Source of the DNA: Fidelibacterota bacterium
GTDB lineage: Bacteria; Fidelibacterota; UBA2242
DNA length: 41,802 nucleotides
Direction of reading: 5' to 3'
NCBI GenBank assembly: GCA_016783665.1
Contig: JADHWC010000012.1
Coordinates: 1-41,802, forward strand
Every line of letters starts with the position of its first letter. Position 1 is the first letter of the stretch. The notes under the pieces are model-generated. The model was not told the DNA's origin. It searched no databases and was given only the letters and a program-made list of their open reading frames with translations. The position numbers and the translations under genes were made by a program. Positions 1,402 to 41,347 of the stretch are shown piece by piece.

Positions 1402-2034
1402 CTATTTATTAAGTCGTTCGATTTCCTGTTTTATTTCCTGAATAACTTCAATATTCATTATCACTTTCTTTTCTCCCGACTTTGAAGAAAAAATGTAAAA
1501 AACCTTGCCCCCGAATTCTTTTGTAAATTTCTCATGGCTCTTGAGTTGTAAACCTTTTTCCTTGAAAATTTGAGATAACTGAATGCCCTGATTAACAGGT
1601 TTTATTTGAATTCCAATGTATTTTTCCTTGATTTTAATGAAAAAGTCCACATTGAACAATCTATCCCATTTGTCAGGAGCAGGCTCAATTTTATAACCAA
1701 GTTCTTTTTCAAGTTGACCATAAATTGTTTTTATTTCGGTCATATAGCCGTCAAATGTTCTGTCAATGACTAATTGAAACATATAGTCTATACAATCTTG
1801 CTCATTGATTTCTTCAACTTCTGCTTGTATTACTTCGGTAATTTTTATATATAGTTTTTTCCCAAGTTCTTCAATGTGATCTTTTGACCGAACATTTTTA
1901 AAATAATACTCTCGCCATTCGTCAAGAATTTTTGGCGAACATTGTCTAATGCTTTCAGATGTTGGCCCAACGTTTCTTTTGAAGTTCAATTGAAATCGGT
2001 TCATTGCGCTATTTAGGATCCATTCTTTTGCCAT
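1402..2034 (-). CDS. MjaI-family type II restriction endonuclease (predicted CTAG specificity)
   Basis: The 210-residue protein begins MAKEWILNSAMNRFQLNFKR and contains CSPKILDEWREYYFKNV, VIDRTFDGYMTE and APDKWDRLFNVDFFIKI, the hallmark segments of the RE_MjaI endonuclease family (R.MjaI of Methanocaldococcus cuts CTAG). A DFF..K..KYIGIQIKP segment near residues 148-168 looks like a PD-(D/E)xK-type active site, which is my reading. Its ATG lies one base after the stop of the methyltransferase gene, so the pair is one transcription unit with modification before restriction. The length appears full and the frame intact, so an active enzyme is plausible. The sequence specificity is inferred from the family, not demonstrated. 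Confidence 0.85.
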   Translation of the reverse strand: MAKEWILNSAMNRFQLNFKRNVGPTSESIRQCSPKILDEWREYYFKNVRSKDHIEELGKKLYIKITEVIQAEVEEINEQDCIDYMFQLVIDRTFDGYMTEIKTIYGQLEKELGYKIEPAPDKWDRLFNVDFFIKIKEKYIGIQIKPVNQGIQLSQIFKEKGLQLKSHEKFTKEFGGKVFYIFSSKSGEKKVIMNIEVIQEIKQEIERLNK

Positions 2035-2035
2035 A

Positions 2036-3313
2036 CTATTTTCCTAAGTTTAAAAATTTGTTTTTGTATTTATAATCTGTTGAGATATCAACATCAACAA
2101 AGCCTTCTTTAATTAGATGAGCATTTATAAATGTTTTGTTTTGAAGATATAAATAGCAAAGAAGGTTATTTTTGTCATCATGTTTTTGCTTGTCATATTT
2201 CAAAAATACTTTTTGCCCTTTAGTTTTTTCTTCAAGATATTTTTTAGCTTCTCTATTGGAAACTTTATTTTCTTTTATACCAAGAAGCCTAATTATTAAA
2301 TCATTATTTAATTTAATAAGTTCAGGACTTATTATTTCTTTTACCGAATAATACTCTTCTCTTGCTCCGCTATTCTTATCTATTTTTGATCCAAATTGTA
2401 ATTTTTTAGGGTCGATTTTTTTATCGAGTTTATGGGTGTCAATAAATATATAAGGAAGTGTTTCAGATTTTTTTTCTAAATTCGAGTTAATGCCATCCTT
2501 TAGAAATTCATATTCTGTTCCAACTAAATCTGCTTGTCGGATATTGAGTTTTTGTTTGGCTATTTCTATGAATTCCGGATTAATCTCATAACCAACAGAA
2601 TTACGTCCAAGGTTTCTTGCGGCTAAAGAAGTAGTGCCACTTCCCATAAATGGGTCTAAAACCGTATCGCCATAAAAGGCAAACATTTTAATTAACCTGG
2701 CAGGAAGTTCTTCGGGAAACATTGCGATATGTCCATCTTGTTTTGTGCCTGCGAAATTCCAATGACCAGCAAAGTAGGTATTCCATTCTTCTGTAGACAT
2801 TTTTGAAAGTTCTTTGTTTTCTTTGGTAGGTTTAGGGGGATTTCCTTGCTTCTTAAGTATTAAAATAAATTCGTAGTCAATTTTCAAAATCCCGTTTCTT
2901 GGATACGGAAAACTTCCCATGATGGATGCTCCACCAGTAGTATTGGTTGTTGTAACTTTTTGCCAGATAATAGCACCCATATAATCAAAACCGATTGCTT
3001 CACAAAACTTAATTATTTCTGTTCGTATCGGAATTACTTTGTATCGTCCATAATAAACTGAACGGGCAAATTGATCACCTATATTTATACATAAACGACA
3101 ACCTGGATGAAGAACTCTATGACATTCATTCCAAACAAGATTCAGATTGTTGATGTAACTTTCATAACTTTCATGAAATCCAATCTGGTCTTCAGTTCCA
3201 TAGTCTTTAAGTTGCCAATAAGGTGGAGATGTTATTACTAAATGAACTGACTTGTCAGGCAGTAAATTCATTTGCCTGCTGTCTCCATTTATTATTTTAT
3301 GTTTCGTTTTCAA
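2036..3313 (-). CDS. N4-cytosine DNA methyltransferase, M.MjaI-like, with C-terminal SNase-like domain
   Basis: The 425-residue enzyme carries TSPPYWQLKDYG near residues 28-39 (SPPY, typical of N4-cytosine methylation) and the AdoMet loop DPFMGSGTT at 220-228 followed by GYEINPEF, so the motif order is catalytic site first (beta class). It should protect the site cut by the adjacent MjaI-like endonuclease. The start is a TTG at 3311-3313 preceded by AAAGGAAA; no better in-frame start is visible. After residue about 285 a second region appears. Residues about 335-425 look like the thermonuclease (SNase) fold, with GQKVFLKYD, then a LLCYLYLQNKTFINAHLIKEG segment and a final YKNKF. The position equivalent to SNase Arg87 reads Asn in DKNNLLCY, so this domain may bind rather than cut nucleic acid. 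Confidence 0.85.
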   Translation of the reverse strand: MKTKHKIINGDSRQMNLLPDKSVHLVITSPPYWQLKDYGTEDQIGFHESYESYINNLNLVWNECHRVLHPGCRLCINIGDQFARSVYYGRYKVIPIRTEIIKFCEAIGFDYMGAIIWQKVTTTNTTGGASIMGSFPYPRNGILKIDYEFILILKKQGNPPKPTKENKELSKMSTEEWNTYFAGHWNFAGTKQDGHIAMFPEELPARLIKMFAFYGDTVLDPFMGSGTTSLAARNLGRNSVGYEINPEFIEIAKQKLNIRQADLVGTEYEFLKDGINSNLEKKSETLPYIFIDTHKLDKKIDPKKLQFGSKIDKNSGAREEYYSVKEIISPELIKLNNDLIIRLLGIKENKVSNREAKKYLEEKTKGQKVFLKYDKQKHDDKNNLLCYLYLQNKTFINAHLIKEGFVDVDISTDYKYKNKFLNLGK

Positions 3314-3400
3314 TTTTTTCCTTTTTTCACAAAGATAATATTCTCTCGGGGGCTTTTAGTTCAAAGTTCGGTTTTTTTTAGCCTTGCACCCAGCGGTTGT

Positions 3401-3453
3401 GTATAAACAATTGTATATATCCGCCCGATTTGGCAGTATAAACACAATTGTAT
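3401..3453. repeat. two near-identical palindromic sequences upstream of the restriction-modification operon
   Basis: GTATAAACAATTGTAT (3401-3416) and GTATAAACACAATTGTAT (3436-3453) are nearly the same sequence, each centred on the palindrome CAATTG, with start points 35 bases apart. They lie about 90-140 bases upstream of the methyltransferase start. They could be operator sites for a control protein or part of a cassette recombination site; nothing in the window decides between these. The rest of 3314-3647 holds no gene I can support, apart from a hairpin at about 3560-3592 (arms GCCAC/GTGGC extended by AAACCT/AGGTTT) near the island edge. Confidence 0.4.
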
Positions 3454-3647
3454 TTATTTCGTCGATACACATAGGTTTTTTACCTGAATTTATTCACAAC
3501 AGGATAATAAATAAGATCAACACAAAATGCAATAGAAATTTCTCATTAATAGTTCCGATGCTTAAACCTGTTTTGCCACTTTGTGGCAGGTTTAAAATTA
3601 AATAGCAATCTCAGGAGCATCTTGCTTTTGGAAAGACCGGTGCGTAA

Positions 3648-3728
3648 TTTAATTGTGAAAGAGAGGAGCCAGATGTGCTCAGAACAGCCACGGAAGAAAA
3701 GATCAAGCAGGGCAAAGTCACAGAATGA
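3648..3728 (+). pseudogene. possible 3' remnant of a gene once upstream of archease
   Basis: An open frame without a convincing start follows an in-frame TAA at 3645-3647. It encodes EREEPDVLRTATEEKIKQGK and ends VTE with a TGA at 3726-3728. The final bases form an ATGA overlap with the archease start at 3725, the classic geometry of co-translated genes. The charged helical text looks like a genuine protein C-terminus, and the island begins immediately upstream, so I read it as the cut end of a chromosomal gene. I cannot name the family. A competing short frame (ATG at 3673, preceded by GAGGAG) encodes a basic 25-residue peptide and is less convincing. Confidence 0.3.
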
Positions 3729-4144
3729 GACCCTTTTACCAACTATTTGACCATACATCGGATTTGGGCGTTCAGGTGAGGGCGGAGGATTTGAAATCCC
3801 TTTTTAAGAACGCAGCGCTTACTCTGACGGACCTGATGACTGATATCAAAACAGTACGGAATCAATCCGACCGGATAATTGAAGTCGAAGCAGAAAATAT
3901 TGAATTGCTGCTGAGAGAGTGGCTGAGCGAATTGTTATTCACGTTCCATACATCCGGCTTTCTGGTGTCCGATGTTGATGTTTTAGATATGAGCGTTAGG
4001 CGCTTTAAGGCAAGAATATTCGGTGAACAATACCAAAAAAAACGTCATGTTTTACAGAGGGAGATCAAGAGCGTTACCTATCATCAACTTAAAGTAATAG
4101 TTGAAGAACATGAAGCAACGGCACGATTTATTCTGGATATATAA
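3725..4144 (+). CDS. archease, RtcB activator
   Basis: The 139-residue protein has the archease layout: FDHTSDLGVQVRAEDL near the N-terminus (family pattern EHTADIG..), the NAALTLTDLMTD helix, and the C-terminal EIKSVTYHQLKV followed by ARFILDI. Archease binds a divalent metal through acidic residues near both termini. It accelerates RtcB guanylylation and lets the ligase turn over repeatedly, acting in the cytoplasm. The gene ends two bases before the rtcB start, so the pair is one operon. The start at 3725 overlaps a preceding stop by four bases, suggesting that an upstream partner existed before the neighbouring island was inserted or rearranged. Confidence 0.92.
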   Translation: MRPFYQLFDHTSDLGVQVRAEDLKSLFKNAALTLTDLMTDIKTVRNQSDRIIEVEAENIELLLREWLSELLFTFHTSGFLVSDVDVLDMSVRRFKARIFGEQYQKKRHVLQREIKSVTYHQLKVIVEEHEATARFILDI

Positions 4145-4146
4145 AA

Positions 4147-5592
4147 ATGAGCAATGAAAGATTGATACGGAAAAGCGCCTATTTGTGGGAAATACCCAAA
4201 GCCGGTCCGATGCGCGTTCCGGGGCGCATCTATGCTTCCGAGGCGCTGATGAGTCAGATTCAGCAGGATGAAAGCCTGAAACAGGTGGCGAATGTGGCTC
4301 AGCTGCCGGGAATAATCAAATATTCGCTGGCGATGCCGGACATTCACTGGGGCTATGGCTTTCCAATTGGCGGAGTTGCCGCCACTGACGCCGCTCAGGG
4401 CGTTATTTCTCCCGGTGGAGTGGGTTACGACATTAATTGCGGCGTTCGGCTTCTCAGAACGGATCTAAGCGCAGAATTTATCCGTCCCCGAATCAAAAAC
4501 ATAGTTACCGGATTGTTTAATAATATTCCCAGCGGAGTTGGTTCACACGGCGCTATAAGGAGATTAAGCAGGAGTGACGTTCAGAAAGTGCTATTAAAAG
4601 GCGCTCGCTGGGCGATTGAGAATGGATACGGAGCCAATGATGATCTGCGATACATCGAAGACAAAGGCTGCCTCGATAGAGCGGACCCGGATGTCGTTTC
4701 TCAACGAGCCTATCAGCGCGGAGCGCCGCAGTTGGGAACACTGGGTTCGGGAAATCATTTTGTTGAGATATCAGAGATAAGCGATATATACGACGAGAAT
4801 GTCGCCCGTCAACTGGGACTGGTAAAAGGTAATATTGTCCTGTTGATCCATACCGGTTCACGGGGGTTGGGTTACCAGGTTTGTGATGATTATATCAAAG
4901 TGACGCTCCAGGCAACCGCTAAATATGGAATATCCGTACCGGATCGGCAATTAGCATGCGCGCCTTTGAACAGTCAGGAGGGCAGGGATTACCTTGGAGC
5001 CATGCGGGCAGCCGCGAATTTTGCTTTTGCCAATCGCCAGGTAATATCATCGCTGGTTGAATCGACATTCCAGAAAAGCCTGAACATATATCCCAACGAT
5101 CTGGGAATGCGGTTGATCTGGGATATCGCTCATAATATTGCCAAGATCGAAACCCATAATGTTGATGGAAAACAGCGCAAAGTTTGTGTCCATCGCAAAG
5201 GCGCCACACGGGCATTTGGTCCCGGAAGTCCCGACTTACCGGATGAGTATCGTTTAATCGGGCAGCCGGTGTTGATTCCGGGTGATATGGGCACCGAATC
5301 TTATCTGTGTGTAGGAACTCAGAAAGCAATGGAAGAGACATTCGGCAGTTCCTGCCATGGCGCCGGACGAGTGATGTCCCGGCATAAGGCGAAAAAGAAA
5401 AGCATGGGGCGCAACCTGTTCAAAGAACTGGAGAATGCCGGCGTTTTTGTCATGGCGGAAGGTAAGGCAACCATAGCGGAAGAGATGCCTTATGCGTATA
5501 AAAATGTCACTGAGGTTGTGAATACCATGCATGCCGCGGGGATCACCAAAAAGGTCGCCCGATTTACACCGATGGGTGTGATCAAAGGGTGA
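4147..5592 (+). CDS. rtcB: RNA-splicing ligase RtcB
   Basis: At 481 residues this is the long, archaeal-type RtcB. It joins RNA 2',3'-cyclic phosphate or 3'-phosphate ends to 5'-OH ends using GTP and Mn2+. The metal and nucleotide ligands are present and match the Pyrococcus horikoshii numbering almost exactly: D95 and C98 in GYDINCGV, N203/H204 in GSGNHFVE, H235 in IHTGSRG, H329 in IAHN, and the guanylylated H404 in SSCHGAGRVMSRHK. PDIHWGYGFPIGG is also conserved. It follows archease by two bases. No RNA substrate locus is adjacent, so the role could be tRNA or rRNA repair or stress-related RNA healing; the local context does not decide. Confidence 0.95.
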   Translation: MSNERLIRKSAYLWEIPKAGPMRVPGRIYASEALMSQIQQDESLKQVANVAQLPGIIKYSLAMPDIHWGYGFPIGGVAATDAAQGVISPGGVGYDINCGVRLLRTDLSAEFIRPRIKNIVTGLFNNIPSGVGSHGAIRRLSRSDVQKVLLKGARWAIENGYGANDDLRYIEDKGCLDRADPDVVSQRAYQRGAPQLGTLGSGNHFVEISEISDIYDENVARQLGLVKGNIVLLIHTGSRGLGYQVCDDYIKVTLQATAKYGISVPDRQLACAPLNSQEGRDYLGAMRAAANFAFANRQVISSLVESTFQKSLNIYPNDLGMRLIWDIAHNIAKIETHNVDGKQRKVCVHRKGATRAFGPGSPDLPDEYRLIGQPVLIPGDMGTESYLCVGTQKAMEETFGSSCHGAGRVMSRHKAKKKSMGRNLFKELENAGVFVMAEGKATIAEEMPYAYKNVTEVVNTMHAAGITKKVARFTPMGVIKG

Positions 5593-34538: not shown

Positions 34539-34568
34539 TGATTAATTCACGAGATCGTGAATTAATCA
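34539..34568. promoter_or_regulatory. large palindrome between the polyferredoxin and tetR genes
   Basis: TGATTAATTCACGA (34539-34552) and TCGTGAATTAATCA (34555-34568) are perfect inverted arms separated by GA. The element lies 97 bases before the tetR start and 111 bases before the divergent polyferredoxin start. No T-run follows on either strand, so an operator for the adjacent TetR-family protein is more likely than a terminator. A good -35 box, TTGACA, lies downstream at 34620-34625; no strong -10 is evident. Confidence 0.6.
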
Positions 34569-34647
34569 CCCTACGGGCCGCATGTCCTTTCTTCAGCGGA
34601 CTGCCGGGTTAAAAAACTCTTGACAAAAAATATTAATATAAGCAAAT

Positions 34648-34674
34648 TTCGACCGGAGGACGAATATGGTCGAA
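34648..34674 (+). promoter_or_regulatory. inverted repeat around the ribosome binding site of the second tetR gene
   Basis: TTCGACC (34648-34654) and GGTCGAA (34668-34674) bracket the strong site GGAGGA (34655-34660) and the ATG at 34666. Folded in RNA it would hide the ribosome binding site and start codon; as DNA it could be a repressor half-site pair. Seven pairs with a 13-base loop is modest, so this is tentative. Confidence 0.35.
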
Positions 34675-35262
34675 TATTACACAAAACAAAAATATGAAGA
34701 CAAAAAATACTTGATTATTTCAGTCGCAGAAAAGTTTTTCTCACGCTTTGGACTCAATAAAACCACAATGGATGAAATCGCAAAAGCCGCGCGAATAGGC
34801 AAAGCAACGCTTTATCATTATTTCGTCAGTAAAGAACATATCTTCGCCGAGGTGATTCAAAAAGAATCACGAGTATTGAAAAACAGGTTGAACGAAGCAA
34901 TAGAGGCAGCTAATAATCCAAAAGAGCAGATCAGGGCATATATTATCACAAGAATGAATTATCTAAATACTCTGGTAAATACTTACTCATTATTAACGGA
35001 TGAATATCTTGAACATTATGCTTGTGTTAAAAAGTTCAGGCTGGATTTTAATAAATATGAAATTCAAACTCTTGCATCTATCCTGCGTGACGGCGTTGGT
35101 CAAAAAGTATTTTCTACCATAAATGTAAATGATGTCGCAAAGGTGATAGGTATAGTTTTACGCGGGTTGGAAATTCCATTGCTGACTGAGGAAAAATCAG
35201 AAAATTTTGATGATGATTTAAATTTAATAACGGATACCATGCTTTATGGGATCTGTAAATAA
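34666..35262 (+). CDS. TetR/AcrR-family regulator of the lipid gene cluster
   Basis: A 198-residue protein with an N-terminal TetR helix-turn-helix (about residues 15-62: ISVAEKFFSRFGLNKTTMDE, then IAKAARIGKATLYHYFVSKE) and a helical C-terminal ligand domain. GGAGGA sits before the ATG. The patatin gene starts 11 bases after its stop, so it leads the plus-strand cluster of phospholipases, lipid kinase and serine palmitoyltransferase-like enzyme. It probably senses a lipid or acyl-CoA, by analogy with TetR proteins next to lipid genes. The palindrome at 34539-34568 is the best candidate operator. Confidence 0.88.
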   Translation: MVEYYTKQKYEDKKYLIISVAEKFFSRFGLNKTTMDEIAKAARIGKATLYHYFVSKEHIFAEVIQKESRVLKNRLNEAIEAANNPKEQIRAYIITRMNYLNTLVNTYSLLTDEYLEHYACVKKFRLDFNKYEIQTLASILRDGVGQKVFSTINVNDVAKVIGIVLRGLEIPLLTEEKSENFDDDLNLITDTMLYGICK

Positions 35263-35273
35263 TTATTATAATA

Positions 35274-36395
35274 ATGACTACTACAAAACATGACATATCA
35301 AAATATCTCTTTTCACTTTTTCTGTGCTATATGCTCTTCACCGGAAATATGTCCGACGCCGGTCCGCAATTAGAAAAAATTGCAAATGCAGAAACGCCCG
35401 TAACGGATAATATATTTTTACAGGCAAATGACAGAAACTTTAAAATCGGTCTTGCCCTTAGCGGAGGCGCCGCAAAAGGACTTGCTCATATCGGCGTTAT
35501 TAAAGCATTAGAAGAAGCTGGAATACAAGTTGACTTTATTTCAGGAAGCAGTATAGGCGCTCTTATAGGAGCTGCTTACGCATCGGGAATACCGATTGAC
35601 ACGCTTGAAAAAATCGCTGTCGATACGGACTGGAAAACCGCTGCGAAATTGTTTTTCCCCGGATTCTCCACATCTGGTTTTGTTAACGGAAAAAGAGTCA
35701 AAGAATTTTTATATACATTTTATGGCGATAAAAAGATTGAGAATTTACCAATCCCCTTTGCGGCAACAGCAGCTGATATCTCTACCGGTAAATTATATGT
35801 TATTAATAAAGGGAGTCTATTAGAAGCTGTTCGTGCAAGCATATCCATTCCAATAGTTTTTACACCCGTAAAACATAAAGATATATTTTTAGTTGATGGC
35901 GGGCTGGTGAACCCGGTACCAATCGATGTCGTAAGAGAAATGGGGGCGGATTTTATTATCGCCGTTCATGTGCTTCACGGCAGACTTCCCTCTGAGAAAG
36001 GAGAATATATCCAAATCGAAAATCCGGATAAGGAAAAAACATCTATAACCCTAAAAAGTATCAGCGCCCTGATAACAAAACAAATTAAAATTATTGAAAA
36101 TGGGCAAGAGAAAGAGTCTGAGGAAAAATTAACAGTACAGAATGAACAACATAAACGTTTGGGAATAGTGAAAATCTCGGAAAATACACTGTACATAGCA
36201 CAAGATGTAATCGCGCAACTCCAGCTTGAACTTTATAAGCCCGATATAATTATCGAGCCAGATACACGAAATATTAATTTGTATGAGTTTTATCGCGGGA
36301 AAGATGCTATTGAAATCGGATATAAAGAAGCAATGAAAGTTATAGGTACTTTAAAATACGATGATAAATCCGGAATCAACAAACGATTGAAATGA
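35274..36395 (+). CDS. patatin-like phospholipase with signal peptide
   Basis: A 373-residue Ser-Asp dyad hydrolase. After a short N-terminus, a hydrophobic segment (residues 11-23) suggests export or membrane attachment. The patatin core follows: oxyanion loop SGGAAKG (63-69), nucleophile elbow GSSIG (Ser93), and DGGLVNP with catalytic Asp208. Patatins release fatty acids from phospholipids or related lipids. The C-terminal part contains a charged insert (about 245-300) and then the segment ELYKPDIIIEPDT, also found in its neighbour. The next gene is a paralogue 26 bases downstream, so a tandem duplication is likely. Confidence 0.9.
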   Translation: MTTTKHDISKYLFSLFLCYMLFTGNMSDAGPQLEKIANAETPVTDNIFLQANDRNFKIGLALSGGAAKGLAHIGVIKALEEAGIQVDFISGSSIGALIGAAYASGIPIDTLEKIAVDTDWKTAAKLFFPGFSTSGFVNGKRVKEFLYTFYGDKKIENLPIPFAATAADISTGKLYVINKGSLLEAVRASISIPIVFTPVKHKDIFLVDGGLVNPVPIDVVREMGADFIIAVHVLHGRLPSEKGEYIQIENPDKEKTSITLKSISALITKQIKIIENGQEKESEEKLTVQNEQHKRLGIVKISENTLYIAQDVIAQLQLELYKPDIIIEPDTRNINLYEFYRGKDAIEIGYKEAMKVIGTLKYDDKSGINKRLK

Positions 36396-36421
36396 TAAAT
36401 AATGAAATGATTGAATAAAGC

Positions 36422-37354
36422 ATGGACATGATAAACCAGATCGGCAATAAAAAAGTCGGGTTAGTCCTTGGCAGCGGTTCCGCAAAAGGTCTGTCTCATA
36501 TAGGAGTCCTAAAACTTTTAGAAGAAATGAATATCAAAATCGACTATATTGCCGGCAGCAGTATCGGAGCCATGATCGGCGGCGCTTACGCTGCCGGAAT
36601 AAGTATCAAGGAAATTGAAGATATTGCTCTCAAAACCGATTTAGCATCATCAGTAAAATACTTTCTTCCAACTATTTCAAAATCCGGTCTGATAAGCGGT
36701 GTAAAAGTAAAGGAATTCTTGAAAAATGTTGTCGGAGATATAGACATTGAAGATTTAAAAATGCCCTTTGTGGCAACAGCGACTGATATTTTCACAGGGC
36801 AAGAAATTGTTTTTAACAAAGGGAACCTGGTTGAAGCAATGCGAGCCAGTATTTCAGTGCCGGTCATTTTCCAACCTGTAATCCACAACAACCAGATACT
36901 GGTTGATGGCGGGCTGGTAAACCCCCTGCCAATTAATATTGCATCCAAAATGGGGGCAGAATTCATAATTGCAGTAAATGTTATGCCATCGTTAAACAAG
37001 ACAAATACTAATAATGGAAAAAATAATAATGTACGGATGACAGCTTTTACCCAGGAAATTAAATCTGCTATGCAAAAAAAGTTAGAAGCGCTGAACCTTG
37101 ATTATAAATGGATAAAAAAGCTATTGGCAAATAAAGGAAAATACAATATTCCGGGTTTTAAAAAAGTATTGAACCAATCTGTTTATATTACCCAAAGAAA
37201 ATTAGCGCGACTTAGCATAGAATTATACAGACCGGATATTTTAATCGAACCGGATATCCCTTTCGCGGGTTTTTTCGATTTCTATAAAGCTAAGGAAATA
37301 ATCGATATTGGTTATAAAACCGCTCAAGATGCTTTTTATGATAATAATTTGTAA
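36422..37354 (+). CDS. patatin-like phospholipase, cytoplasmic paralogue
   Basis: A 310-residue paralogue of the preceding gene without a signal peptide. Core motifs: GSGSAKG (17-23), GSSIG (Ser47) and DGGLVNPLP (Asp162). The C-terminal LYRPDILIEPDI matches the neighbour's ELYKPDIIIEPDT, and both end with an (E/D)IGYK helix. The two probably act on related lipids, one exported and one in the cytoplasm. Their position next to a serine palmitoyltransferase-like gene suggests lipid turnover. No clear ribosome binding site is seen before the ATG. Confidence 0.88.
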   Translation: MDMINQIGNKKVGLVLGSGSAKGLSHIGVLKLLEEMNIKIDYIAGSSIGAMIGGAYAAGISIKEIEDIALKTDLASSVKYFLPTISKSGLISGVKVKEFLKNVVGDIDIEDLKMPFVATATDIFTGQEIVFNKGNLVEAMRASISVPVIFQPVIHNNQILVDGGLVNPLPINIASKMGAEFIIAVNVMPSLNKTNTNNGKNNNVRMTAFTQEIKSAMQKKLEALNLDYKWIKKLLANKGKYNIPGFKKVLNQSVYITQRKLARLSIELYRPDILIEPDIPFAGFFDFYKAKEIIDIGYKTAQDAFYDNNL

Positions 37355-37432
37355 CGATTCGGATTTTGTCAATTTTCTTGCCGGTGAAAAAATTATTTTC
37401 AGTGAAATTAAACCATAATATGAGAGATGACA

Positions 37433-37537
37433 ATGAATAAGATGAATATCAAAATCAAAAAAGTTGAAAACAAGCATGATCTGAAAAGATTCATATCGTT
37501 TTTCTATATACTTTATAAAGGTAGAGATGACTCATAA
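37433..37537 (+). pseudogene. GNAT-like acyltransferase, N-terminal fragment (copy a)
   Basis: Thirty-four codons: MNKMNIKIKKVENKHDLKRF, then ISFFYILYKGRDDS and TAA. It matches the first residues of the full-length copy at 38693 (KEVVSRRDLKKFLSFPYNLY). The similarity stops abruptly after LYKG, exactly where the lipid-kinase gene begins; the kinase ATG at 37527 overlaps this fragment. The 5' flank (NFLAGEKIIF in translation, 37367-37408) also matches the 5' flank of the full copy. It is therefore the stub of an earlier acyltransferase gene cut by insertion or recombination. Confidence 0.75.
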
Positions 37538-38423
37538 AATAAAATTTATTTTAAATCCAATAGCCGGCAGGGGCAGAAATTGGGATAGAATGAAACGATT
37601 CCTTGACAGAGTTTTAGATGAGTTTCCTTTTGAATGCGAGATTCAACAGACTGTAGGCCGAGGGGATGCTCTGCGGATAGCCCGTGAAGCAGTACAGGAT
37701 GGCTTCGATATAGTGGCAGCCGTTGGGGGCGACGGCACCGTCAATGAAGTGGCTTCAGCAGTGGTTAATTCAAATGTATGTTTAGGGATTATTCCCATGG
37801 GCTCAGGAAATGGTCTGGCAAGGGGATTGGAAATTCCCCTGCAATTTAAGAAAGCCTGTCAAATATTATGTGAAGGTAAATTCAGGAGAATAGATGTAGG
37901 AAAGATTCAGGACCGATATTTTTTCGCTACCTTCGGAGTTGGGTTTGGTGCCTTAGTGACAAAACGGATTAATACAAGGTCTCGAAGAGGGGTACTGCCT
38001 CATTTATATATTGGCCTTCAAGAATTTTTCAACTACTCACCTGAAGAGATTACCCTCAGGTTTGATCACCGACAGATCACAGTAAAGGCTCTTTTGGTGG
38101 CAGTGGCTAACACCATACAGTTTGGCAATGGAGCCATTATCGCACCACAGGCACAGCCCGACGATGGCTTACTGGATATTTGCATTATTAATGACCTGAA
38201 TATATTGCAAGCTGTCTATCATCTTCCGAAACTTTTCACCGGACATATTGATAAAATCCGTTATTTTGAAACCTACCGGTCTTCGAATGTGGAGATTATT
38301 CTACCCGTGCCGGCACCCATATATGTAGACGGTGAATCGTTGGATGGGGATGCCAGACTGAAGGTGTCCTTAGTTCCTAAGGCCCTAAAAGTTATAGTTC
38401 CTAAAGATACGCCATCTTCTTAA
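37527..38423 (+). CDS. diacylglycerol/sphingosine-kinase-family lipid kinase
   Basis: A 298-residue YegS/DgkB-type kinase. NPIAGRG opens the ATP domain, GGDGT (67-71) is the nucleotide loop, PMGSGNGLARGLEIP follows, and the second domain has QPDDGLLDICII and VDGESLDGD. The family phosphorylates diacylglycerol, sphingoid bases or ceramide; in Caulobacter a related kinase acts on ceramide next to the sphingolipid genes. Here the neighbours are a serine palmitoyltransferase-like enzyme and GNAT-like acyltransferase copies, which favours a sphingolipid substrate. The coding text is visibly more G+C-rich than its neighbours, and it is flanked by two broken copies of the acyltransferase, so it looks imported. 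Confidence 0.88.
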   Translation: MTHKIKFILNPIAGRGRNWDRMKRFLDRVLDEFPFECEIQQTVGRGDALRIAREAVQDGFDIVAAVGGDGTVNEVASAVVNSNVCLGIIPMGSGNGLARGLEIPLQFKKACQILCEGKFRRIDVGKIQDRYFFATFGVGFGALVTKRINTRSRRGVLPHLYIGLQEFFNYSPEEITLRFDHRQITVKALLVAVANTIQFGNGAIIAPQAQPDDGLLDICIINDLNILQAVYHLPKLFTGHIDKIRYFETYRSSNVEIILPVPAPIYVDGESLDGDARLKVSLVPKALKVIVPKDTPSS

Positions 38424-38450
38424 GAAGTAATTTGACCGAAGGAGAAAGAC

Positions 38451-38678
38451 ATGAACAGAGAAAAGATAAGTGTAAATAAAGAAGATGGGAAAAGGGATCT
38501 CAAAGATTTTCTCCGTTTGCCGTGGAAAATCTATGAGGGAGATCCTTATTGGATACCGCCGCTCCTAAAAGAAATGAAATTCAAATTGAACCGTCTGAAG
38601 CGTCCTTTTTTCGAGCACCCGAGCCCTGTTAATTATTTTACTGGTGAGAAAATTATTTTTAAAGAAGAATTATTATAG
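38451..38678 (+). pseudogene. GNAT-like acyltransferase, N-terminal fragment (copy b)
   Basis: A 75-residue frame with a good AAGGAG before its ATG. Residues about 12-58 (RDLKDFLRLPWKIYEGDPYW, IPPLLKEMKFKLNR, RPFFEH) are the N-terminal domain of the same family as the copy at 38693, but clearly diverged from it. After PSP the sequence switches to VNYFTGEKIIFKEELL, matching the 5' flank of copy a. So the gene is truncated and joined to host sequence. It travels with the G+C-richer kinase gene and was probably imported with it. A 75-residue product could be made but would lack the catalytic part. Confidence 0.7.
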
Positions 38679-38692
38679 AAACCGAAAAAAAA

Positions 38693-39817
38693 ATGGGAAT
38701 TGTAATAAAAGAAGTAGTAAGCAGACGCGATCTAAAAAAATTCTTATCATTCCCATATAATCTCTATGCAGGAAGTAAATACTGGGTACCTCCATTATTT
38801 TTCGATGAGATGAACACTTTACGGAAGGATAAGAATCCCGCTTTCGAATTTTGCGAAGTGAAATATTGGCTTGCGTACAAAGACGGAAAAATTGCCGGCA
38901 GGATTGCCGGAATCATTAATTGGCGCTACGTTGAAAAGTAGCAAAACAGATACGCTCGTTTCGGATGGATCGATTTTATTGATGATGAGGATGTGTCAAA
39001 AGCATTGATTGAAACTGTGGAAAAATGGGCAAAAGATAAAGGTATGGAAGCTGTTCATGGACCTTTAGGATTTACAGATCTTGATTATGAAGGAATGTTG
39101 ATAGAAGGATTTGAAGAACTCGGTACAATGGCTACAATTTATAATTATCCCTATTACCACAAACACCTTGAAAAATATGGCTACAAAAAAGATATTGATT
39201 GGATTGAATTTGAAGTAAAGGCGCCCCAAGAAGTTCCTGAAAAAATTGACAGAATTGCCAATATTGCCTTAAAGAGAAATAATCTCAGGGTATTAAAAGT
39301 AAAAAAATCAAAAGATCTGCTGCCTTATGCCAAAGATATGTTCAAGGTATTAGACGAAACATATAAAGACCTTTACGGAGTTGTGCCACTATCGGAAAAG
39401 CAGGTTGATCTCTACATTAAACAGTATTTTGGGTTCATTCGCCCCGATTATATCTCCATAATACTCGACAGTAATGACAGAGTAGCCGCATTCGGGATTA
39501 CCATGCCTTCCCTGTCAAAAGCTCTGCAAAAAGCAAAAGGAAGACTTTTTCCGGTCGGATTTATTCATCTGTTAATGGCAATGAAAAATAATAAGCAAAT
39601 AGATTTATACCTCATCGGTGTTCGCCCCGACCTTCAGGGAAAAGGTGTGAATTCTATTATATTTAATGAACTTAACAAAATATTTATAAATAAAAATATC
39701 GTTTCAACCGAGACTAATCCGGAACTGGAAACCAACTTAAAAGTTCAGGCACAATGGAAACACTTTACGCATCGACAACATAAAAGAAGGCGATGTTATA
39801 TCAAGCAGTTGTATTAA
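38693..39817 (+). pseudogene. GNAT-like acyltransferase (possible bacterial ceramide synthase), full length with one amber stop (copy c)
   Basis: A single frame of 374 codons with a TAG at 38939-38941 (codon 83). The text before it ends IINWRYVEK, and after it QNRYARFGWIDFIDDEDVSK continues in phase. Relatives, as I recall them, have Trp at that position, so TGG to TAG is the simplest explanation. The remainder is intact: VHGPLGFTDLDYEGMLIEGF, IYNYPYYHKHLEKYGYKKD, FGITMPSLSKALQKAKGRLF and RPDLQGKGVNSII, ending HRQHKRRRCYIKQL. This GNAT-fold family overlaps, by my recollection, with the acyl-CoA-dependent ceramide synthase of Caulobacter. The adjacent serine palmitoyltransferase-like gene supports that reading. 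A restart at the GTG at 38993 would give a 274-residue C-terminal product. Confidence 0.78.
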
Positions 39818-39878
39818 CCAAAAGATCAGGGAATTAGTAAACCGAAAATATTGAATTCTTAATGAAAGGAAATTTCTT

Positions 39879-41141
39879 ATGTTTGTAGAATTAAAAGGCG
39901 TCGTGAAACAAAAATATACCTGGACAAAAAAGTATTTTACCGATAAATATAAAGATGTGTTTAACAAAGCATATAAATTTACACGCGCTAAAACGGCGAA
40001 AGCCTTCGGCTATTATCCTTACTATCTCGACATCCGGGAAACCGAGGGAACTAATGTTCTGATAGGTAATAAAAAAGCAATTATGCTTGGCTCAAACAAT
40101 TATTTAGGGCTCACTCATCATCCGGAAGTGATCGAAGCGGGTGTTCGGGCATTAAAAAAGTACGGCTCAGGTCTGACGGGTAGCCGACTATTAAACGGCA
40201 ACATTTATTTACATAACCAATTGGAAGAAAGATTGGCGTCATTTGTCGGCAAAGAAAAAGCACTTGTATTTTCCACAGGCTTTGCCGTTAATCTGGGCGT
40301 TATTTCCACTATTACCGATGAAAAGGACGTGATATTCAGTGACGAGATGAATCACGCATCTATTGTTGATGGCGCCAGATTTTCCAAAGCGCCTGTACAG
40401 GTTTTCGGGCATAACGATATGAATAAATTAGAGGATAAATTAATATCTACTCCCAATGAATACGGTAGGTTTATCGTATCCGATGGTATTTTCAGCATGG
40501 AGGGAGATATTGTAAAGCTTCCGGAATTAGTTGCCATTGCTAATAAATACGGTGCACGGATTTTGATAGATGACGCCCATTCTCTCGGCGTTCTGGGACC
40601 AAACGGCGATGGAACCGCAGCTCACTATAATCTTACGAACAAAGTAGATTTGATTATGGGGACTTTTAGTAAATCACTCGCCGGCATCGGCGGGTTTATT
40701 GCCGGAGAAGAACCGGTGATAGACTATTTGAAACATCATACACGGACGATTATTTTTACGGCGGGACTGCCGCCTGCCAATACCGCCGCTGTTTTGAAAG
40801 CCCTGGAAATTATCATCAGGGAACCGGAGCGACGAGCGCAATTATGGAATAATGCCAATCATATGAAAAAGGAACTAAGACTATTGGGATTTAATATTGG
40901 CAATAGTTCCACGCCTGTAATCCCAGTTATTATTGGCGATGAAATGAAGACCTTTTCAGTCTGGCGGGATTTGCTGGATGCCGGCGTTTATACCAATCCT
41001 GTCATCTCCCCTGCCGTACCACCTGATCGTTCTCTGCTGCGCACCAGTTATATGGCTACCCATACCCGCGAACAGCTGGATTTTTGTCTGGAGCAGTTCG
41101 CAAAAGTGGGTAAAAAGCAACGCGTCATCAGACCGAATTAA
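39879..41141 (+). CDS. serine palmitoyltransferase-like alpha-oxoamine synthase
   Basis: A 420-residue PLP enzyme of the AONS family (BioF, KBL, HemA, SPT). An N-terminal extension of about 45 residues (KKYFTDKYKDVFNKAYKF) precedes the core. Core marks: SNNYLGLTHHPEV, GSGLTGSRLLNGN, DDAHSLGVLG (D231, H234), the PLP lysine K265 in GTFSKSLAGIGGFIAG, and HHTRTIIFTAGLPP, which is closest to serine palmitoyltransferases. SPT condenses serine with an acyl-CoA to give 3-ketosphinganine, the first step of sphingolipid synthesis. The kinase and acyltransferase neighbours support SPT over BioF or KBL; no biotin or threonine genes are near. A 3-ketosphinganine reductase is not in the window. Confidence 0.82.
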   Translation: MFVELKGVVKQKYTWTKKYFTDKYKDVFNKAYKFTRAKTAKAFGYYPYYLDIRETEGTNVLIGNKKAIMLGSNNYLGLTHHPEVIEAGVRALKKYGSGLTGSRLLNGNIYLHNQLEERLASFVGKEKALVFSTGFAVNLGVISTITDEKDVIFSDEMNHASIVDGARFSKAPVQVFGHNDMNKLEDKLISTPNEYGRFIVSDGIFSMEGDIVKLPELVAIANKYGARILIDDAHSLGVLGPNGDGTAAHYNLTNKVDLIMGTFSKSLAGIGGFIAGEEPVIDYLKHHTRTIIFTAGLPPANTAAVLKALEIIIREPERRAQLWNNANHMKKELRLLGFNIGNSSTPVIPVIIGDEMKTFSVWRDLLDAGVYTNPVISPAVPPDRSLLRTSYMATHTREQLDFCLEQFAKVGKKQRVIRPN

Positions 41142-41250: not shown

Positions 41251-41275
41251 GGAGGGATCTTTCTACACTTCGTTA
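41226..41275. repeat. inverted repeat with the CGAAGTGTA motif
   Basis: TAACGAAGTGTA (41226-41237) and TACACTTCGTTA (41264-41275) are perfect 12-base arms around 26 purine-rich bases. CGAAGTGTA recurs at 11230-11238 and in each 58-bp repeat unit at the right edge. This suggests a dispersed small palindromic element. Confidence 0.6.
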
Positions 41276-41281
41276 CGAAAG

Positions 41282-41347
41282 ACAAGTTCTTTCTTTATTA
41301 CATTAAGAAAACAAGTTTTTTCTTTATTACTCACGAAAGACAAGTTG
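41282..41347. repeat. 29-bp tandem repeat, about 2.3 copies
   Basis: ACAAGTTCTTTCTTTATTAC (41282-41301) and ACAAGTTTTTTCTTTATTAC (41311-41330) are spaced 29 bases, with a third partial ACAAGTT at 41340. ACGAAAGACAAGTT also occurs at 41275 and 41333, exactly 58 bases apart. Intergenic, between an inverted repeat and the GIY-YIG gene. Confidence 0.6.

Follow-up and report, generated by a model that had tools for sequence, protein, structure and literature searches.

A probable sphingolipid-synthesis locus in a Fidelibacterota genome places a serine palmitoyltransferase gene beside TetR and patatin-like genes

Bacterial sphingolipid genes occur in several arrangements. The Caulobacter-type cluster of Rhodobacteria comprises aasR, cerR, acpR, spt, cerS, the ceramide-phosphoglycerate genes and LptF2/G2. 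Its published content and order (PMC11324152) are resembled by a Roseomonas cluster encoding an acyl carrier protein (ACP), a serine palmitoyltransferase (SPT), a kinase, a CDP-alcohol transferase, LptF/LptG, a GNAT acyltransferase, an acyl-AMP ligase and a short-chain dehydrogenase/reductase (SDR). The Bacteroidota set consists of SPT, a GNAT of another type (type II, defined below) and CerR, while the BT_0972-type 3-ketosphinganine reductase represents the classical SDRs. For the phylum Fidelibacterota (Marinimicrobia, SAR406), there called Marinisomatota, a 2024 study described sphingolipid potential and found the group to be the most abundant Spt-encoding one in the Black Sea water column, where its link to lipids rests on correlation (PMC11334938). 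Here, we analyse a 41,802-nt stretch of a Fidelibacterota (Candidatus Neomarinimicrobiota) genome (GCA_016783665.1, contig JADHWC010000012.1), hereafter the window, which is the entire contig C108. A plus-strand run in its last part encodes a TetR-family regulator, two patatin-like phospholipases, a lipid kinase, a tandem-GNAT acyltransferase and an SPT, termed SPT1. We consider this region to be a sphingolipid-synthesis locus serving the pathway proposed below, with a probability of about 0.68. The host is an uncultured, marine-type bacterium whose nearest named relatives, by SPT, are Ca. Neomarinimicrobiota genomes (SPT identity 91–94%), and its assembly is a draft of 2.38 Mb in 121 contigs, 92% complete. 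Genes were called from open reading frames (ORFs) and profile searches of the window proteins, which bore out the succession of TetR, two patatins, lipid kinase and SPT-like enzyme described in the initial annotation of this DNA.

Judged from its sequence, the product of the last gene of the run (39879–41141, plus strand) is a serine palmitoyltransferase, as initially annotated. Its top model is SerpalmtaseCFB (529 bits). Among solved structures, it scores 417 bits against the Sphingobacterium multivorum SPT (3A2B/8GUH), with the next best at 298; the lower scores include KBL/BioF (≤298 bits), Sphingomonas SPT (292), cysteate acyltransferase (258) and SulA (7U7H, 241). A 60-sequence tree included Escherichia coli BioF and KBL, Thermus thermophilus KBL and the host genome’s own KBL, the BioF/KBL branches being long. 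SPT1 clustered with both proven bacterial SPTs and separated from BioF and KBL (support 99/98), so the assignment stands. SPT1 retains the catalytic residues N73, S102, H159, D231, H234, T262, K265 and R388. Nine active-site positions (N52, S81, H138, S185, D210, H213, T241, K244 and R367 in S. multivorum numbering), assigned roles in SPT according to PMC10196870, with N52 contacting the serine side chain via water, are identical in SPT1 and in a second SPT of the same genome. The latter, SPT2, is encoded on contig C67, shares 54% identity with SPT1 and belongs to a separate lineage. Bit scores, tree and active-site residues together rule out a BioF or KBL identity for SPT1, which falls in a phylum-specific clade (support 100/99, 17 rows) found in families f1, f8 and f12.

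The reductase described initially as missing is indeed absent from the window, but not from the genome. Searching elsewhere in the assembly recovered a CerR-like extended SDR on contig C76 (4787–5773), the second gene after a type-I tandem-GNAT gene of the alphaproteobacterial ceramide-synthase class (2726–3883), with a CDP-alcohol phosphotransferase gene (3884–4756) between them. The best NCBIfam model of this SDR is HpnA, which also ranks first for the SDRs encoded in the Roseomonas and Pedobacter clusters. The row of three genes is conserved in the host’s family, and CerR was found in 16 out of 16 family genomes and in 27 of the 61 genomes of the phylum sample. SPT and CerR co-occur across these 61 genomes (23 with both, 27 with neither; Fisher p=5e-7) and are also associated outside the family (p=5e-4); the counts depend on thresholds and draft assemblies, and neither value is corrected for relatedness. 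As far as gene families tell, the genome thus holds the whole pathway, with SPT encoded on C108 and C67 and both the predicted acyltransferase and the predicted reductase on C76.

In this pathway, SPT1 or SPT2 would convert serine and an acyl thioester into 3-ketosphinganine, as suggested by family, residues and tree position. N-acylation would be carried out by the type-I GNAT of C76, and perhaps by the type-II enzyme when intact. With the window GNAT gene cut, as detailed below, this step would rest on the C76 enzyme or on the type-II paralogs of contigs C25 and C94. Reduction of the keto group would fall to the CerR-like enzyme, to judge by its family and linkage, and a phospho head group may come from the CDP-alcohol phosphotransferase. 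We infer all substrates and the head-group chemistry from these families, and the order of N-acylation and reduction is borrowed from the Caulobacter model (PMC11087976).

Compared with the Caulobacter-type cluster, the host genome likewise has an SPT, a tandem GNAT of the same superfamily and a CerR-like SDR, and C76 joins GNAT, CDP-alcohol transferase and CerR. In contrast, the genes are spread over C108, C67 and C76, acpR/aasR and Lpt genes are absent from the locus, the window GNAT is of type II, the kinase is of another type, and the patatins and TetR are extra. The initial annotation, which proposed a set like that of Caulobacter with patatins added, is thus upheld as to SPT, a member of the GNAT superfamily and the place of the patatins and TetR in the locus, but not as to duplicated GNATs, the kinase or a genome-wide lack of reductase. 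The Bacteroidota arrangement is approached in that the nearest solved relative of SPT1 is the Sphingobacterium SPT and the window GNAT is of type II; it differs in that no CerR lies beside SPT1, and the host also has a type-I GNAT and a second SPT. As for BT_0972-type reductases, the related genomes G052 and G056 have a classical SDR overlapping SPT1, likened to that type by class rather than by BT_0972 sequence, whereas the host genome has only 31–34% relatives of it. The overlap of SPT1 with a classical SDR gene is seen at L165:6920-9029 and L166:6853-8965, in genomes where no GNAT or CerR was detected, and makes this SDR a candidate for a KDSR-type reductase pathway replacing CerR.

Upstream of SPT1, the two ‘GNAT copies’ of the initial annotation proved to be a single tandem-GNAT frame cut by a stop codon; ahead of it lies a distinct 5' remnant, derived from a GNAT of a different type. 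The ORFs 38693–38941 and 38993–39817 form one reading frame of 374 codons (38693–39817, plus strand), open save for an in-frame TAG at 38939–38941 (codon 83). The same frame runs on past the TAG, which rules out a frameshift as the cause of the break. Codon 83 is TGG at three related loci (L009, L010 and L011), in the context VEKW-NRYARFGW. An intact ortholog, that of L011, was modelled with AlphaFold (mean pLDDT 83, pTM 0.81) and shows a tandem GNAT fold, with 2WPW as the best PDB match (E=3e-13) and a TM-score of about 0.65 to 7Q3A. According to this model, the TAG would fall within the first of the two GNAT domains, and therefore neither half is expected to be a complete enzyme. Pairwise ratios of non-synonymous to synonymous substitutions (dN/dS) between the window GNAT and its relatives are 0.08–0.10, equal to the values between intact copies; hence, either the break arose recently or the assembly is at fault here. 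The gene is truncated or misassembled, with the stop seen in the assembly only. A single-base assembly or sequencing error in an intact gene has nearly even odds. TAG is one transition away from TGG, all other codons form an open frame with purifying constraint equal to that of intact copies, and the source is a draft assembly; on the other hand, the older remnant at the same locus indicates that decay occurs there. This remnant (38451–38678, plus strand; a 75-codon ORF with the N-terminal ~60 residues followed by a stop) shares 45–53% identity with its nearest type-I GNATs versus 40% with the adjoining type-II GNAT. It is also present at L009:2241-2395 (88% DNA identity) and is, therefore, older than the split of those genomes. 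A duplicate of the SPT1 5' end lies ahead of the GNAT gene at L009:3401-3500 (~80% DNA identity to window positions 39831–39923), and the SPT1 locus in that genus shows recurrent partial duplications and remnants.

Tandem-GNAT genes number four in the host genome: that of the window and its paralogs on C25 (60% identity), C94 (51%) and C76 (25%). The GNAT phylogeny splits into type I and type II, the type-II clade having a support of 100/99. Type I contains the C76 enzyme together with Pedobacter, Zixibacteria and Methylomirabilis genes located beside SPT, and the Roseomonas cluster genes lie on a neighbouring branch. Type II, outside the alphaproteobacterial bacterial ceramide synthases (bCerS), contains the window gene, the C25 and C94 paralogs and the one tandem GNAT that a Bacteroides genome yielded. 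It also contains four copies from two Bacteroidota (L024 and L026) that adjoin SPT and CerR. The window GNAT is 51% identical to the single Bacteroides copy and 50–54% identical to the L024/L026 copies. Both types are full-length homologs (hhalign probability 100%, E=6e-74, 376 columns). Bacteroides is a genus that produces dihydroceramides. Of the eight family genomes with SPT1, seven (the window, L008, L009, L010, L011, L158 and L159) show a type-II GNAT linked to it, and this linkage was not seen in the eighth, L157. The identification of the GNAT as a ceramide synthase, made in the initial annotation, is thus upheld as to superfamily and adjacency to SPT, but the gene groups with the Bacteroides-type class and not with the alphaproteobacterial ceramide synthases. 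Matches in a plasmid collection included E. coli YghO, which over its full length is ~38% identical to the type-I GNAT and so belongs among the relatives of bacterial ceramide synthases. Within the phylum, a genome of 2.79 Mb in a single contig (G048; L163 and L174) has SPT1, CerR together with a type-I GNAT, and a radical-SAM gene next to a type-II GNAT. On the Streptomyces plasmid NZ_CP108712.1 (L066:4772-9298), an SPT-like protein, a tandem GNAT, an epimerase-type SDR and a condensation-domain protein are encoded in one overlapping run, possibly a ceramide cassette on an actinobacterial plasmid.

The run is headed by the TetR-family regulator gene (34666–35262, plus strand; TetR_N PF00440, 5.9e-16), followed on the same strand by the RssA-like patatin genes at 35274–36395 (PF01734, 2.6e-35) and 36422–37354 (PF01734, 5.8e-34). 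Intergenic gaps measure 11 bases between TetR and patatin 1, 26 between the two patatins and 172 between patatin 2 and the kinase; all gaps from the kinase through SPT1 are at most 61 bases. Both patatins carry the catalytic GSSIG and DGG motifs of RssA-type enzymes and score 171 bits against PRK10279; unlike these enzymes, they fall under the model cut-off of 272 and are linked to SPT1 and TetR. In another genus (L157), the order is TetR (51%), patatin 1 (73%), an ABC1/UbiB-family kinase, patatin 2 (70%), a radical-SAM gene, SPT1 (83%) and a CDP-alcohol transferase, while L011 shows patatin 2 (84%), a radical-SAM gene, GtrA, GNAT, SPT1 and a CDP-alcohol transferase. TetR and the patatins are, therefore, conserved neighbours of SPT1 rather than chance ones, and the initial inclusion of both in the locus is supported by the recurrence of the TetR-patatin-patatin-SPT1 order. 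From these neighbourhoods, they probably couple acyl-lipid turnover to the pathway, through regulated release or recycling of acyl chains. An alternative role of the patatins in a cyclic oligonucleotide-based antiphage signalling system (CBASS) or another defence system was rejected, as PADLOC matches were weak (35–47 bits) and the stable neighbourhood is one of lipid metabolism. A search for homologs of the relatives’ radical-SAM protein (476 aa) and CDP-alcohol transferase gave no match in the host genome, where C108 ends 660 bases 3' of SPT1. A perfect 58-bp tandem repeat (2.4 copies) occupies the contig end (41664–41802), preceded by an imperfect 29-bp repeat at 41273–41346; the 58-bp repeat is probably the reason why the assembly stops there.

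A perfect palindrome with 14-bp arms and a 2-bp centre (34539–34568; TGATTAATTCACGA-GA-TCGTGAATTAATCA, 100% complementary) lies between a divergent NapH-like gene and TetR. It occurs once in the window, with 0 expected in 100 shuffles, and was not found upstream of TetR in L157. We regard it as a candidate TetR operator on the basis of its form and position. The kinase gene (37527–38423, plus strand), also present in L009 (89%), encodes a YegS/DgkB-type lipid kinase with a GGDGT motif (DAGK_cat PF00781, 1.7e-31; TIGR00147, 153 bits, cut-off 119), whose nearest solved relatives are the 4WER diacylglycerol kinase domain and YegS. Its similarity to the Roseomonas ceramide-cluster kinase is almost nil (27 bits, spanning 34 residues), compared with 99 bits for E. 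coli YegS. The initially suggested parallel with the Caulobacter ceramide kinase CpgB (PMC10331486) was, thus, rejected, with Roseomonas sequences serving as the proxy. Far upstream, the window also carries a type II restriction-modification pair (1402–3313), an MjaI-type endonuclease and an N6/N4 methyltransferase with a weak SNase-like C-terminal match.

Several observations weigh against a sphingolipid-synthesis locus. SPT1 does not reach the curated threshold of any SPT equivalog model (CFB, 529 of 640 bits; beta, 403 of 500), these models being lineage-specific, and sphingolipid production in this organism is a prediction from its genes. Four genomes of one genus have SPT1 and no GNAT or CerR match. 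Two distinct SPT lineages in one genome, the phylum-specific SPT1 clade, that genus with its classical SDR beside SPT1 in two loci examined, and the 1-deoxysphingolipids of Black Sea waters (PMC11334938) would all fit an alpha-oxoamine synthase of other specificity, with SPT2 as the true SPT and the locus making another aminolipid, such as a 1-deoxy-type base from alanine or glycine. We hold this to be unlikely, as all tested SPT active-site residues are kept, including the equivalent of N52, and both lineages lie within the clade of biochemically proven SPTs. Sulfonolipid enzymes belong to the same superfamily and closely resemble SPT, from which SulA is distinguished by a lysine in place of an alanine (PMC9304779). 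A locus for capnine-type sulfonolipids, in which SPT1 would be a cysteate acyltransferase and GNAT would N-acylate capnine, could draw on this resemblance and on the 258-bit match to the solved cysteate acyltransferase. It is very improbable in view of the far higher score against SPT than against either that enzyme or SulA. Moreover, the column of SulA Lys281, set by analogy with the SPT alanine of PMC9304779 with SulA itself outside the alignment, holds an alanine in SPT1 (aligned motif FTAGLPP), which disfavours a sulfonolipid enzyme.

The remaining points against the locus reading concern the GNAT. Membership in the ceramide synthases was judged through proxies (Roseomonas and a Bacteroides genome, the latter, with its one type-II GNAT, standing in for the B. 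fragilis CerS BF9343_4218) rather than through the Caulobacter and B. fragilis enzymes. Outside the family, type-II GNATs showed no association with SPT (p=0.6), and two genomes (G028 and G029) carry a type-II GNAT with no SPT above threshold. Because of this uncoupling, a ceramide role of the type-II GNAT is, on comparative grounds, only plausible. The enzyme may instead acylate another lipid and merely lie beside SPT1, ceramide synthesis proceeding only via the type-I enzyme of C76, which belongs to the alphaproteobacterial class and whose type adjoins CerR in many family genomes; loss through a nonsense codon would then be tolerable. Such a division has a considerable chance of being right, though we would put it below one half. 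It is opposed by the adjacency of type II to SPT and CerR in two Bacteroidota, by the type-II nature of the one tandem GNAT detected in a Bacteroides genome, and by the linkage of type II to SPT1 at seven of eight family loci. Adjacency to SPT alone is, in any case, insufficient to assign a ceramide synthase.

The sphingolipid-synthesis locus that we favour combines chemistry of a known kind, and a known pathway type, with an unusual gene setting. So far as checks allowed, what is new comprises the pair of SPT lineages, the division of the GNATs into two types, the conserved cluster of GNAT, CDP-alcohol transferase and CerR, and the TetR/patatin/SPT1 locus. It is conceivable, albeit doubtful, that part of the phylum has two sphingolipid lines: a core of SPT2, type-I ceramide synthase and CerR, and a TetR-controlled accessory line of the phylum-specific SPT1, type-II acyltransferase and patatins for acyl recycling or remodelling. 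If true, the accessory line would yield a second class of sphingoid lipids, one that could be switched on or lost. For one lineage, the gene set can now be stated: a pair of SPTs, tandem GNATs of two classes as candidate ceramide synthases, and the conserved cluster of the C76 type. These genes point the way to direct tests, for which the phylum also offers a cultured member.

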